DNA of 64,000 nucleotides, from positions 1 through 64,000 of the forward strand of contig CAIRMO010000092.1 of NCBI GenBank assembly GCA_903879705.1. The letters run 5' to 3'. The position numbers and the translations under genes are program-made. Numbering within the stretch: position 1 is the stretch's first letter; each line of letters starts with the position of its first letter. Positions 48,041 to 57,710 of the stretch are shown one piece after another. The notes under the pieces were generated by a model, which was not told where the DNA came from, ran no database searches, and saw only the letters and a program-made list of their open reading frames with translations. The DNA comes from an uncultured Candidatus Competibacteraceae bacterium (lineage in GTDB: Bacteria; Pseudomonadota; Gammaproteobacteria; Competibacterales; Competibacteraceae).

Positions 48041-50038
48041 TTAGTTGCGGTTACGCCGCCGCCAGCGATCACCAAAATCGGGGTAAAATACCCGCAGGTC
48101 AGCCTGAGCCTGGCTCTCCTGCATGGCTTGGCGAATCAGGGCGATGTTGATCTGAGCGCGGCGCTTGAGAATGTCCGCTTTGAGTGTAGTCAGTTCAGCG
48201 CAACCTGCCATGAGATCCCGTTCCATTTGCGCCCGTTGCTGGGCATAACGCTGGCGCAAATCAGCCATCGTAACGGGATCGACGCCTTGGCGCGGGTCAT
48301 AGCGGAACTGCCGCTCCAAGGTCTGCCGCCACCCCAGCAGCGCCGCCGCCCGTTGCCGACCCAGTCGCTGGCCAAACCCCGGCACCGTTCGCAAGGCCTC
48401 GGCGGTGACATCAGCGGCAGTTTCAATCCCGTAGGACTCCAGCGCCATGCGGTCGGTGACGCGAATTTCAGGAATCCGGGCAGCGTCTACGAAAAAACCT
48501 TCCAAAAACCCCTGCAATTGCATCCGCTGCTGATCAACATCCAACCGCTGCAAATCCCGCTGCAAATCCGTCGCCAGATTCCGGTAGCGGTCGCGCAGGG
48601 TTTGCAGGACCTGCAATCGCTGCAGGAACGGCTGCACGGTGGCGTGTTCCCGCCACTCGCTTCGCAAGTGGGCCAGTTCCCGGCGGGCGGCGAACAAGGC
48701 CAGCCGGCGGCGCTGATACTCACGGCGCACTGCCGGATTGCGTAGCAGCGACCAGCCAGCGGCGGCCAGCGCTGGACATAGCCAGAACAGCCCGGGCCGA
48801 ATCAGCACCGCCGCCAACGTCGCGCCGAGCAGCGCCGCTGCCTTGAGGGCGTTATCGCGCTGGGCGCGTTGCAGCACTTCCGGGAGTGGGGTTGGCGTCG
48901 CCGGCGGCTGGGCTTCGGGATGCGGCATCGCTTCCGCATCAGGCAGCGCGACCGCCATGATCCGGTTCCAGACCCGCTCCAGATCAAAATCCGGATGGCC
49001 CGTGTCGGGACTGATCACAGCAGGACGCGGGGAAATGAAGAAGGCTGCGCCGCTGGCCTGTTCCACTACGCACCACGGACAGGCCGGCAACGGGCTGGGG
49101 TATTTGTGCATCGGGTTGCGCCCACAGGAGCGCAACTCGCGGTTCAGTCGCTCCAGCGCCAGCAGCCATTCCCTGGGGGTGGGACGGCGCTGGTCCACGG
49201 CCAGCGGGACGAACGCCCGCTCGAACAGATCAGCAACCGGGCGCGGCAGCGCCGAAAATGGCAAGGTATGCGGCGGCGGCTCCATCAGTTGCAACGCGGC
49301 GTGCTGGCCGAACGCGAACCGGTAGTCGCGGATCGCCCGTTCAATCGGCATATCGCCCTTGCCCCGGTAGCGTCCGGCGAAGGGGTGACGGCCCATGAAC
49401 AGCAGGTGGAAACACAGCAGCGCCAGGCCAAAGGCATCATGATCCGGGTTGCGCCGCAAACCGCGAAAGGGCCGCTCCTGCAATTCCGGGGCGGTAAACT
49501 GCGGTACCCCGACTTCACAGAGAAACAGCCGGTCGCCGACGCTGATTTGGAACGAATCGCAGTCGATCAGTTTGACCAGCGCCTGGGCCGAAACTACCAC
49601 ATTGCCGGGATTGACATCACCGATCACATGGCCCCGGGCGTGAATCGTCTCGAAAGCGCTGGCCAGGTTGCGGGCAGCGTGAACCAGGAACGACCAGTCG
49701 GCCTGAGGAAAGGCGCGTTTGCGGTGGGAAGGACCGTACAGGCTATGAATTTCCTGATAACCGCTGACCTTGGGCATGATAAAACCCTGCACCGGGCCGT
49801 TTGGGCCAGCCCGTAATACATCCACTGGCCAGGCGGCGATCGCCAGCAAACCGGGGTGGGCCTGGCGGGCCATGCCTTGCAGCTTCAGGGTTTTGTCGGC
49901 GGTAACGGGCTGGTGGTAGCGCTTGGCGACAAAGCCGGGCCGGCCCACGATTTCGTAAACCGCACCTTCGCCACCACGCCCCAGTTCCTTGCCTAGTTCG
50001 ACCGGGTGATCCGCGCCGCTAACCAGCGTCGGCATCAC
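48041..50038 (-). CDS. YegI-like protein kinase with C-terminal helix-hairpin-helix (TerY-P triad)
   Basis: 665 residues. The kinase domain (about 12-300) has a glycine loop ELGRGGEGAVYEIV, the lysine in FVAKRY, a catalytic loop HVIGDVNPGNVVV (HxxGDxxPxN) and LIDCDSF in place of DFG. Two hydrophobic segments near 400-430 (AAALLGATLAAVLIRPGLFWL) are followed by a coiled-coil-rich stretch. A helix-hairpin-helix follows (LRTVPGFGQRLGRQRAAALL), suggesting DNA contact. It is third in a coupled series after the vWA and PP2C genes, with an overlapping start (20 bases). It phosphorylates unknown targets, perhaps the vWA protein. Confidence 0.88.
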   Translation of the reverse strand: MMPTLVSGADHPVELGKELGRGGEGAVYEIVGRPGFVAKRYHQPVTADKTLKLQGMARQAHPGLLAIAAWPVDVLRAGPNGPVQGFIMPKVSGYQEIHSLYGPSHRKRAFPQADWSFLVHAARNLASAFETIHARGHVIGDVNPGNVVVSAQALVKLIDCDSFQISVGDRLFLCEVGVPQFTAPELQERPFRGLRRNPDHDAFGLALLCFHLLFMGRHPFAGRYRGKGDMPIERAIRDYRFAFGQHAALQLMEPPPHTLPFSALPRPVADLFERAFVPLAVDQRRPTPREWLLALERLNRELRSCGRNPMHKYPSPLPACPWCVVEQASGAAFFISPRPAVISPDTGHPDFDLERVWNRIMAVALPDAEAMPHPEAQPPATPTPLPEVLQRAQRDNALKAAALLGATLAAVLIRPGLFWLCPALAAAGWSLLRNPAVRREYQRRRLALFAARRELAHLRSEWREHATVQPFLQRLQVLQTLRDRYRNLATDLQRDLQRLDVDQQRMQLQGFLEGFFVDAARIPEIRVTDRMALESYGIETAADVTAEALRTVPGFGQRLGRQRAAALLGWRQTLERQFRYDPRQGVDPVTMADLRQRYAQQRAQMERDLMAGCAELTTLKADILKRRAQINIALIRQAMQESQAQADLRVFYPDFGDRWRRRNRN

Positions 50039-50804
50039 GGACCGCCAGGATCAGGGTCTTGTCGTCGTGGGTGCGTTGATTGATCGCCGGGCCGGACAGA
50101 AACCGCTCCAGCGCTGTCGTCAGTTCCGCCAGATCGCCGGTGGCGGGATAGTCACGCAGGCGCTGGAACAGGGGGCGAAAGAACGGGAGATGCGCCTGCC
50201 GGCTGTGATAATGCAGCGCCAGCGACTGCAAACCATCGCTCAGCAAGGCGACTTCGGCGACCGGCTCGGTCAGGAGGCAACACTCCAGCCGGGCGGCGGC
50301 GGTCGGGTCGGTGACAAAGTGGGTTTCATTCGGGTATTCACCGCCCTGCGGCCAGAACACGGGCCGGTAGCCGTCGGCAGTTCCGATCACGATGACCCCA
50401 TCGCCGATTTGCAGGAACAGCGCCCGATCCTCCGTCAGCGCCGCACCGAGCAGGGTGCAGGCAAACTCCCGGATCGGCAGTCTGCTTTGCGCGGCCTGTT
50501 GCGCCAGCGCGGCTTGCACCTGGTAAAGCGCCCGTTCGGCCACTGCCGGGGTCCAGTCCAACGCGGGTTGAGGACACCAACGGGCTAATTCTGCCAGCAG
50601 GGTCTGGCAGGCCAGTGCGGCCCCGACGCCGGATTGGGTGGCGCTGCCGGCCCCATCGGCGACCGCCAGCAGCAAGGTTGAAGCGGCGTCCGACGATTGC
50701 AGCCAGTGCGCGGCGCTGGCATCCTGGCAAGGCAGGCCATCGGCCAAATGAGCCACGCCGGGGACGCTGGCGCAGACGTAACGCCAGCCGCCCGTTCCGC
50801 TCAC
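50019..50804 (-). CDS. PP2C-like serine/threonine phosphatase of the triad
   Basis: 261 residues. PP2C acidic motifs are recognisable as LAVADGAGSATQSGVGAAL (the DG of motif 2), LGAALTEDRALFLQIGDGVIVI (GD) and EVALLSDGLQSLALHY (SDG), with a C-terminal HDDKTLILAVR (DD). The N-terminus has HLADGLPCQDASAAHWL. It overlaps the vWA gene by 4 bases and the kinase gene by 20. The set matches E. coli YegI/YegK/YegL and the TerY-P triads described by comparative genomics. Confidence 0.88.
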   Translation of the reverse strand: MSGTGGWRYVCASVPGVAHLADGLPCQDASAAHWLQSSDAASTLLLAVADGAGSATQSGVGAALACQTLLAELARWCPQPALDWTPAVAERALYQVQAALAQQAAQSRLPIREFACTLLGAALTEDRALFLQIGDGVIVIGTADGYRPVFWPQGGEYPNETHFVTDPTAAARLECCLLTEPVAEVALLSDGLQSLALHYHSRQAHLPFFRPLFQRLRDYPATGDLAELTTALERFLSGPAINQRTHDDKTLILAVRDADAG

Positions 50805-51496
50805 ACCGAAGCCCAGCCATCAGGGCCGGCGGGATTGACCAGCGGCACGTCAGTTCCCGGCACCGAGCACGACACGGAGCGCATCGAATTGGACAGCCAT
50901 TGGAACAGTTCGCGGAAACGCAAACCTCTCAGTCGCAGCGGTCGGCGAACCGAAATTTGTTGCAGGATGTCGAGATTGGCTTCATCCACACCAACCGCGA
51001 AGAAGGCGAAGGCGCGTTTTTCCTCGCCCAGGCGCACCGCATCGGCGGCGGCCTTCCAGTCGTCGGTCGGGCTGCCGTCGGTGAGCAGGAACACCCACGG
51101 CCGGAAAAAGGGAATACCGTGTTCGCGGTACCGAGCCTTGCGCTGATCCAGCAAATCCAACCCCTGGATAATGGCCTGACCCATCGGAGTATCCTTTTGG
51201 GCGGTCAGTTGCGGCGGAACGAATTGTTCGGCGGTCTGGAATTCGGCGACGATTTGCACCGGACCGAAGGTGATGATAGCGATTTCTACCCGCTTGGCGG
51301 CCAGGCTATCGGCCAGCAACTCCTCTTTGAACGCTGCCAGGCCATGATTAAGCTCAGCCATCGGATGCCCATTCATCGACCAGGAATTGTCCAGCAACAG
51401 GACACACGGACAGCGCGGCTCCGGGTTGTCGGCGAATTCAGCGCCGCTGAAATCCACCTCGAACGGGGTTTGTTGGGAAAGGTCAAGTTCGTTCAT
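50801..51496 (-). CDS. TerY/YegL-like von Willebrand factor A protein
   Basis: 231 residues. The vWA MIDAS motif is DNSWSMNG (DxSxS) with PCVLLLDNSWSM at about residues 31-42, then the Thr (KDTPMGQAIIQGLDLL) and Asp (LLTDGSPTDDWKAAAD) of the metal site. It is the first gene of the kinase-phosphatase-vWA unit. The upstream intergenic region contains the HEARO-like RNA, transcribed from the opposite strand. Confidence 0.88.
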   Translation of the reverse strand: MNELDLSQQTPFEVDFSGAEFADNPEPRCPCVLLLDNSWSMNGHPMAELNHGLAAFKEELLADSLAAKRVEIAIITFGPVQIVAEFQTAEQFVPPQLTAQKDTPMGQAIIQGLDLLDQRKARYREHGIPFFRPWVFLLTDGSPTDDWKAAADAVRLGEEKRAFAFFAVGVDEANLDILQQISVRRPLRLRGLRFRELFQWLSNSMRSVSCSVPGTDVPLVNPAGPDGWASV

Positions 51497-51566
51497 TCGG
51501 GGAATCCTCTCAGGATCGCGGGCGGGCCAGAATCAAGTAGCCTCGAAGGAATACACGGATGTATGA

Positions 51567-51960
51567 CGACCCCGCTGGTTTAAGTCATGGTGTAGGGCCT
51601 GCTTTTCCGTGCCAGCCATCAGGCGATACGCGGAGGCCCGAAACCGGACGTCCAGCGGCTCTTAAAAATCAGTCCCCGGCATTTGGCTGTTAAGCCCCCC
51701 AGCCGGGGTCGGAGGGGGATTACTCCCCAACCCGCAAGCGGGTAATAGTCATCTCGCCCAGTTATCCCGTGGTTGTTCGCACCCTTGCGGGTCTATCCCT
51801 AGCGGCCACACTGCGCGTTTCTCGGTACCATGCTGTTTAATGACCGGCCTCAGAGTCCGGGACTGATGAAGTATCCCGGAGTGACTATCGCACCGCTTTC
51901 GCGGATTCACGGGTAACGACTTCCCTTTCGGGGGGCTGGTTGAGCCACGCCACCCACAGG
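51567..51960 (+). ncRNA. Candidate stand-alone HEARO (IscB-type omega) RNA element
   Basis: The element begins directly 3' of an ATGA (51563-51566), the integration context described for HEARO RNAs. Nested stems include GGGCCT...CCGTG/CGCGG...AGGCCC, CCCCGGC/GCCGGGG, GGGGGATTACTCCCC, ACCCGCAAGCGGGT, ACCCTTGCGGGT, TCCGGGA/TCCCGGA, CCGCTTTCGCGG and CCCTTTCGGG. There is no ORF, and no iscB or tnpB lies nearby. The omega RNA identification is by remembered resemblance, not by covariance search. The structure itself is clear. Confidence 0.6.
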
Positions 51961-51973
51961 GGGCAACGCCAAT

Positions 51974-52013
51974 AAACGATGAGCGGAGTCATGGATGACG
52001 ACAATCATCGTTT
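51974..52013. repeat. Inverted repeat at the 3' edge of the structured region
   Basis: AAACGATGA (51974-51982) and TCATCGTTT (52005-52013) are perfect inverted copies. Between them is ATGACGAC (51995-52002), which also occurs at the left edge of the structured region (51563-51570). It may mark the right boundary of the element. Confidence 0.4.
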
Positions 52014-52076
52014 AAGCCGAGGACTCAACGCTATAATGTGTAGCCTGTTCGAGCCAAGGTAGACCAGAAAAACCCG

Positions 52077-52823
52077 ATGAAGTTGATAAGAGCTTGGGTG
52101 CTGCTCGCGCTGATTATGGCGCTGATGCCAGGTTGTGCGTGGTGGCAAGCGCGGGTCGGGAAACCCGAAAAGCCAGCGATGCCTCGTACTGCACCTGCAC
52201 CTGCGCCTGCGCCGCCCGTGCAACCCCCGGTACTGGAGACCAAGCTGGACGCCATGAGTGGGCGGCTGGAGCGGATAGAGCAGACACTGGTTGCCGTGCG
52301 GGAGCAAGGTCAGCAGCGACAAAAACAGGATGTTCAGGTGCAGCAAGCCGTGGGCGGTTTGCAGCGCGAGGTGCGGGATGCCCGGCTGGCAGTGGTCGGC
52401 GTTCAGCGGCAGATGAAGCAGAATCCCGCGCCACCGCCAGCCGGAGCCGTGGCTGGAACCGCTGACTTCTGGGCGATAGACGCACCGCTGGGTGAATTGC
52501 CCAACGGCGGCGGCAAGCATGAAACCCGCCGCATTCCGGCCCTGGTGCCCGATCAGGCGCGGGAGATTCTGGTTTATGCCCAGATTGCGACCGGCTACGT
52601 CAAAGGCGGCCCGCATCGATTCCGGCTTTCGGTGCGGACCCAGGGCGACCGGGAAGCGGCCTTCTATCTGTACGCGGTCGGTCAGCCACAGCCGAGCTGG
52701 GCCTATAACTCCGACAATGTCTGGCTGCCCATGCCCAAAAACCGCGAGCTGATTTTGCAGACCGAGGGTGAGCCGTTCTTTGGCGACTGGAACAGCGAGG
52801 TGCGGATTATCGGGTATCGGTGA
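52077..52823 (+). CDS. Coiled-coil lipoprotein, hypothetical
   Basis: 248 residues. The signal ends in the lipobox LMPGC (Cys20). A Pro/Ala-rich linker is followed by a heptad-rich coiled coil ([40 protein letters not shown]). A C-terminal beta-rich domain of about 110 residues ends [10 protein letters not shown] and includes [21 protein letters not shown]. No family was recognised. TATAAT at 52032-52037 could be its -10 box. It is placed before aroQ but separated by 115 bases. Confidence 0.65.
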
Positions 52824-57105: not shown

Positions 57106-57710
57106 AAAATCCAGTGGTTTACATGCTGGCTAATCAGCGAAACGGCACGCTTTATATTGGCATGACCTCGGATTTGATAAAACGAATCTGGCAGCATAGA
57201 GAAGAATTGGCCGATGGTTTTACAAAAAAGTACGCTGTAAAAATGCTGGTGTGGTACGAACAGCATGAAACGATGGAAAGCGCCATCAGCAAGGAAAAAG
57301 CCATGAAAAAATGGCTACGGAAATGGAAACTATCGACTATTGAGCAGTTCAATCCCGGCTGGATCGATTTGTGGCCTGAAATACTCGGAGAAACTGCTTA
57401 TCCCGTCATTCCCGCGAATGCGGGAATCCAGACTGAGGCAAATCGGACACGGGACAACCACCCTTCCGCCGTCATTCCCGCGAATGCGGGAATCCAGACT
57501 GAGGCAAACCATACACGGGACGACCACCCTTCCGCCGTCATTCCCGCGAATGCGGGAATCCAGAAAGGCAATGAACTAGATTCCCGCATTCGCGGAAATG
57601 ACGATAGTGGAGAGAGAGGCACTAGCGAGCATCAGGGCACTAAACTGGATTCCCGCATACGCGGGAATGACGATGGTGGAGTAAAGGTGCTGGCGAATAT
57701 CAGGGCGCTG
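57074..57710 (+). repeat. 26-base direct repeats flanking the GIY-YIG segment
   Basis: The 26 bases at 57074-57099 (beginning AGGTGCTGGCGAATATC, within the hsdM 3' end) are repeated identically at 57685-57710. They bracket a 611-base segment containing the GIY-YIG ORF and its palindromes. A degenerate third copy lies at 57617-57640. The pattern suggests duplication of the hsdM end when the segment entered. Confidence 0.75.

Follow-up and report, generated by a model that had tools for sequence, protein, structure and literature searches.

A probable stand-alone omega RNA derivative of an ISC element in a Competibacteraceae genome

Background

Can a guide RNA persist in a genome as part of a mobile element that has lost its nuclease gene, and what would maintain it there? 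This question was raised by a non-coding region located ahead of a VWA-domain gene in an uncultured member of Competibacteraceae. A preliminary description of the window (the whole stretch of DNA analysed, 64,000 nucleotides) had proposed a stand-alone HEARO/omega RNA at 51567-52013, without iscB and perhaps guiding an IscB from another locus. A covariance match, related copies, an empty insertion site and an IscB gene in the same genome all supported this proposal, while strand, edges and guide had to be revised. We estimate the probability that 51545-52029 is a stand-alone omega RNA derivative of an ISC element at nearly nine in ten.

Delimitation and classification of the element

The locus was found to carry a 485-bp iscB-less ISC element with a HEARO/omega RNA on the minus strand (Table 1). 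Alignment of the window with four copies from G007, a genome of another genus of the same family, defined GTTGAG (52029) as left end and ..CTTC (51545) as right end. The element had first been read on the plus strand and as starting directly after an ATGA at 51567; the plus-strand HEARO reading was without a match, and this ATGA was rejected as insertion site as it lies in the right-end hairpin region. Both copies of ATGACGAC noticed at the edges were indeed present, at the two end hairpins and not at target sites, while the reported inverted repeat AAACGATGA/TCATCGTTT corresponded to the arms of the left-end hairpin. Some other structured RNA on the plus strand, at the coordinates first given, is barely credible: the plus-strand fold was lower than shuffles (z -2.7), but the only significant Rfam match was on the minus strand, as were covariation and conserved loops.

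Table 1. Features of the element and its immediate surroundings (window positions)
Feature	Position	Strand	Evidence or remark
Possible -10 box (TATAAT) of the host gene at 52077 (+)	52032..52037	(+)	adjoins left end; kept in empty sites
Presumed guide GGCTACACATTATAGC	52030..52045	(-)	host flank at left end; by analogy with the guide directly 5' of the scaffold in IscB omega RNA (PMC9640706)
iscB-less ISC/HEARO element, whole, 485 bp	51545..52029	(-)	left end 52029, right end 51545; alignment to G007 copies and C31/C134 ends; site empty in G001, G002 and G003 (same genus)
Left-end hairpin, arms AAACGATGA / TCATCGTTT around GTCATCCATGAC	51974..52013	(-)	fold; compensatory changes in helices 2 and 3
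Omega RNA (HEARO) scaffold	51742..52029	(-)	RF02033 positions 1-211, 65.1 bits, E 8.9e-13; covariation
~83-nt domain replacing iscB, conserved hairpin CCCCGGC..GGCUUAACAGCC..GCCGGGG	51659..51741	(-)	common to G007 and G008 iscB-less copies; absent from iscB-bearing C31 element
Right-end domain closed by CCGCTGG/CCAGCGG	51545..51658	(-)	89 % identity to C31 right end, 88 % to C134; fold
Right-end hairpin ATACATCCGTGTAT (GCGCATCCATGCGC in C31 and C134)	51551..51564	(-)	sequence and fold comparison
Right-end flank GAGG, presumed TAM (NNGG)	51541..51544	(-)	GG at positions 3-4 in 14/14 right-end flanks examined
Downstream sense gene, VWA domain (host gene, outside element)	50801..51496	(-)	start codon 48 nt past right end

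The insert was absent from the same intergenic spot in three same-genus genomes (G001, G002 and G003), where 68 nt separated the VWA start codon from the conserved TATAAT, versus 535 nt in the window. The G001 empty site ATTATACC/GGGCC corresponded, as read by eye, to ATTATAGC/GAGG across the element, a good match which is not base-perfect, the flank on the window side falling 18 nt short of its length in the empty sites. No target duplication was present at the insertion site. Hairpins at both ends and insertion without target duplication (the flank having diverged by 18 nt) are as expected of an ISC element of IS200/IS605; the element itself does not encode IscB, and no iscB was found within 1.8 kb downstream of it. 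The earlier statement that iscB is lacking nearby holds for this neighborhood of the window, while an intact iscB was located on another contig (C31) of the same genome. PATE/MITE derivatives of IS200/IS605 elements have likewise kept both hairpin ends, lost the protein gene and inserted without target duplication, and the present element differs from them in carrying a complete guide RNA scaffold. It is best explained as a MITE-like ISC element (IS200/IS605 superfamily) that is non-autonomous, has retained its two end hairpins and the entire omega RNA scaffold, and carries a small structured domain in the former place of iscB.

Two further observations concern the surroundings. Directly downstream of the element (48041-51496, minus strand), VWA, PP2C phosphatase and kinase-like genes formed an operon-like row, the kinase call being slightly under Pfam's cut-off; we take this row to resemble TerY-P-type triads. 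Several copies of a REP-like palindromic repeat, CCGTCATTCCCGCGAATGCGGGAATCCAG, three of them ~66 nt apart, were found at 57400-57670 beside a restriction-modification-like gene.

Conservation of the omega RNA

HEARO was detected by a sensitive Rfam scan of 51400-52200, whereas the default scan of the window returned only a tmRNA. The covariance search against RF02033 that had been suggested earlier yielded a significant, full-length match with conserved and covarying helices, although its 65.1 bits fall below the curated cut-off of 83 bits; in G008, relatives of this subtype that are associated with iscB reached 94-107 bits. Among six related sequences, the 63 pairs of 11 helices were paired in 93.6 % of cells and 21 pairs displayed double changes (score 0.413), versus 33-41 %, two to seven pairs and scores of 0.07-0.10 in slid controls; two of the six rows, both from G007, are nearly the same, and the fold was obtained from the very alignment it is scored on, which works in its favor, but the margin is still large. 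The stems of the omega RNA are therefore maintained by covariation in related copies. The block at 51567-52013 is non-coding and rich in inverted repeats, and both results show its structure to be more than chance.

With HEARO RNAs and IscB omega RNAs the element shares the full-length model match, the multistem scaffold, the guide-side left end and the hairpin ends; it differs in its lower score, in lacking an adjoining iscB and in an additional domain of ~83 nt that follows the scaffold. Stand-alone guide RNAs of IscB, an ancestor of Cas9, are an already known kind; among them, the element stands for a lineage that is well bounded and displays some new traits. Ktedonobacter racemifer is said, from work by Altae-Tran et al. 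in 2021, to harbor omega RNA copies without iscB, with IscB encoded elsewhere in the genome. That situation resembles the present one in both respects; it concerns another phylum, and the copy described here comes from a lineage in which a conserved domain replaces iscB and the flank is NNGG.

Related copies and age of the iscB loss

Four iscB-less copies of 481-484 bp were found in G007, 95.6-99.4 % identical to each other, placed in different surroundings and displaying 74-75 % identity to the window element. The set of nearly identical copies at several loci that is expected of a MITE-like element was thus encountered in G007 and not in the window's own genome, where this iscB-less form occurred once. 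The search for further copies and for iscB, also suggested earlier, uncovered two partial relatives in the latter genome. On C31, 1.6 kb separated a match to the right end (89 %) from one to the RNA core, and on C134 the right end was accompanied by the last 41 codons of iscB. The ~83-nt linker was common to the window's genome, G007 and G008, and one pair of its hairpin was changed on both sides (GGC/GCC to GAC/GTC). The G007 copies at different loci and the linker common to three genomes indicate that iscB was lost long ago and that the miniature form has moved since; the element is therefore a miniature lineage of long standing whose mobility does not depend on carrying iscB.

A fresh deletion from the C31 element was rejected, as the latter carries a different omega RNA subtype and the linker is common to other genera. 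A count of 15 HEARO matches versus one iscB in G007 was also rejected as proof of 14 stand-alone elements, most matches lying less than 160 nt from contig ends. Pattern matches to the linker in viruses or other gammaproteobacteria were attributed to chance, being in unrelated, apparently coding sequence, and a terminator scan did not call the linker an intrinsic terminator. A fifth G007 copy (C17:29820-30370, L148) was an iscB-less chimera combining a C31-type omega RNA with a window-type linker and right end, which suggests module exchange.

Guide and target site

All 14 right-end flanks examined displayed NNGG: GAGG, TCGG, AAGG, TTGG, ATGG, CCGG and CTGG in the seven whose placement came from alignment alone, and CAGG, GAGG, ACGG, AAGG, GCGG, AAGG and ACGG in seven further copies. 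Left-end flanks of the examined copies had nothing obvious in common. Such a layout matches the logic of IscB, with a guide at the left and a TAM at the right, and NNGG is likely to be the TAM. OgeuIscB similarly has its guide directly 5' of the omega RNA scaffold and its TAM 3' of the target, the latter being NNRR (PMC9640706), in contrast to the NNGG deduced here from flanks only. The guide formerly placed at 51547-51566 was not supported, the presumed guide being 52030-52045 on the minus strand.

No genome site matched guide plus TAM above background, and a distant target was rejected, matches being no commoner than those of a reversed control. The presumed guide is followed by GTTG in the occupied allele and by GAGG in the restored empty allele. 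This context, together with the lack of a better genomic target than background, makes retention by cutting of the empty site the likeliest role of the element, with IscB presumably supplied in trans from C31.

Proposed mode of retention

The ISC element on C31 is complete, and its iscB encodes, without interruption, a protein of 430 aa with the PLMP motif, RRXRR and HNH Pfam domains and IscB relatives in the PDB. This apparently intact protein, whose element has a matching right end, may plausibly use the RNA of the window element in trans; the pairing is uncertain because the omega RNA of the C31 element itself represents another subtype.

Five Y1_Tnp genes were present in the same genome, and a simple pattern search of its TnpA loci found none with matching end hairpins. 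We infer that a Y1 transposase from elsewhere would move the element in trans, as single-stranded DNA and without target duplication. A minus-strand transcript read from the host flank would then take up ~16 bases of that flank as guide. By analogy with the published behaviour of IscB and TnpB, IscB from C31 together with this RNA would cut the restored empty site, recognized by guide plus NNGG TAM, and copy-back repair would lead to retention of the element. Cutting should not affect the allele that carries the element, since GTTG and not NNGG follows the guide there. Taken as a whole, this mechanism seems somewhat likelier to hold than to fail.

A rather unlikely alternative is that the element is a dead remnant, an ISC element minus iscB which is now inert and whose RNA is neither transcribed nor usable by the C31 IscB. 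The score under the curated HEARO cut-off, the occurrence of this form only once in the window's genome and the failure to find a consensus promoter would all fit such decay, but compensatory changes keep the helices, both ends are intact, the same architecture recently moved in G007 and the linker domain is conserved among relatives.

A sister lineage at start codons

Among 39 genomes of Competibacteraceae, 12 harbored HEARO and ten IscB. A sister HEARO lineage, with left end GTCAACTACCCC and an IscB of ~54 % identity, included at least 13 copies that lack iscB and lie well away from contig ends (L070, L080, L099, L151, L089, L093 and others are examples of the lineage). A decayed copy was also observed in the window's genome (G000:C81:11043-11780; L009:1501-2240), upstream of a peptide-deformylase-like gene and with only 36 bits for HEARO. 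RTGA is the flank of this lineage, as NNGG is the right-end flank of that of the window element, and ATGA/GTGA is known from earlier work as a HEARO insertion site.

Sister-lineage right ends stopped at [A/G]TGA, which was the start of a sense ORF in 24 of the 27 testable elements, with or without iscB. The genes concerned included mdh, sucC, leuB, bioD and others; for mdh, sucC, sixA, leuB and bioD the family profile began at most six residues from the RTGA codon, so these codons are genuine starts. Only 24 of the ~86 ATGA sites of the window (intergenic or at starts) were candidate starts, so the observed placement is far above chance, selection against gene-breaking insertions explaining part of it. 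Many right ends displayed GGAG or GGAA a few bases ahead of the codon, resembling an RBS. A start-codon rule for HEARO was not found stated in the literature searched.

This placement also bears on whether the window element is a leader (5' UTR) element affecting expression of the downstream VWA-PP2C-kinase operon, its guide role being secondary. The sense orientation, the right end 48 nt ahead of the VWA start codon and the position of sister-lineage elements exactly at start codons are in its favor; absence of the insert at this locus in genus-mates shows, however, that it was not conserved as a regulator, and such a role is distinctly unlikely.

For the family, a tentative proposal, less likely than not, is that omega RNA elements without iscB have become a settled mode of existence in Competibacteraceae. 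They would enter in sense orientation immediately before housekeeping genes, one lineage at the start codon (RTGA) and the other at NNGG (sometimes the RBS), the promoter of the host gene itself would make the guide RNA, and shared IscBs acting in trans would preserve many copies. The sister lineage, by its position at start codons, suggests how the RNA of such elements could be expressed without breaking host genes. The window element is well bounded, has known empty sites and relatives, and shares its genome with a candidate IscB; it offers a natural test case for whether trans-acting omega RNAs keep nuclease-less elements alive.
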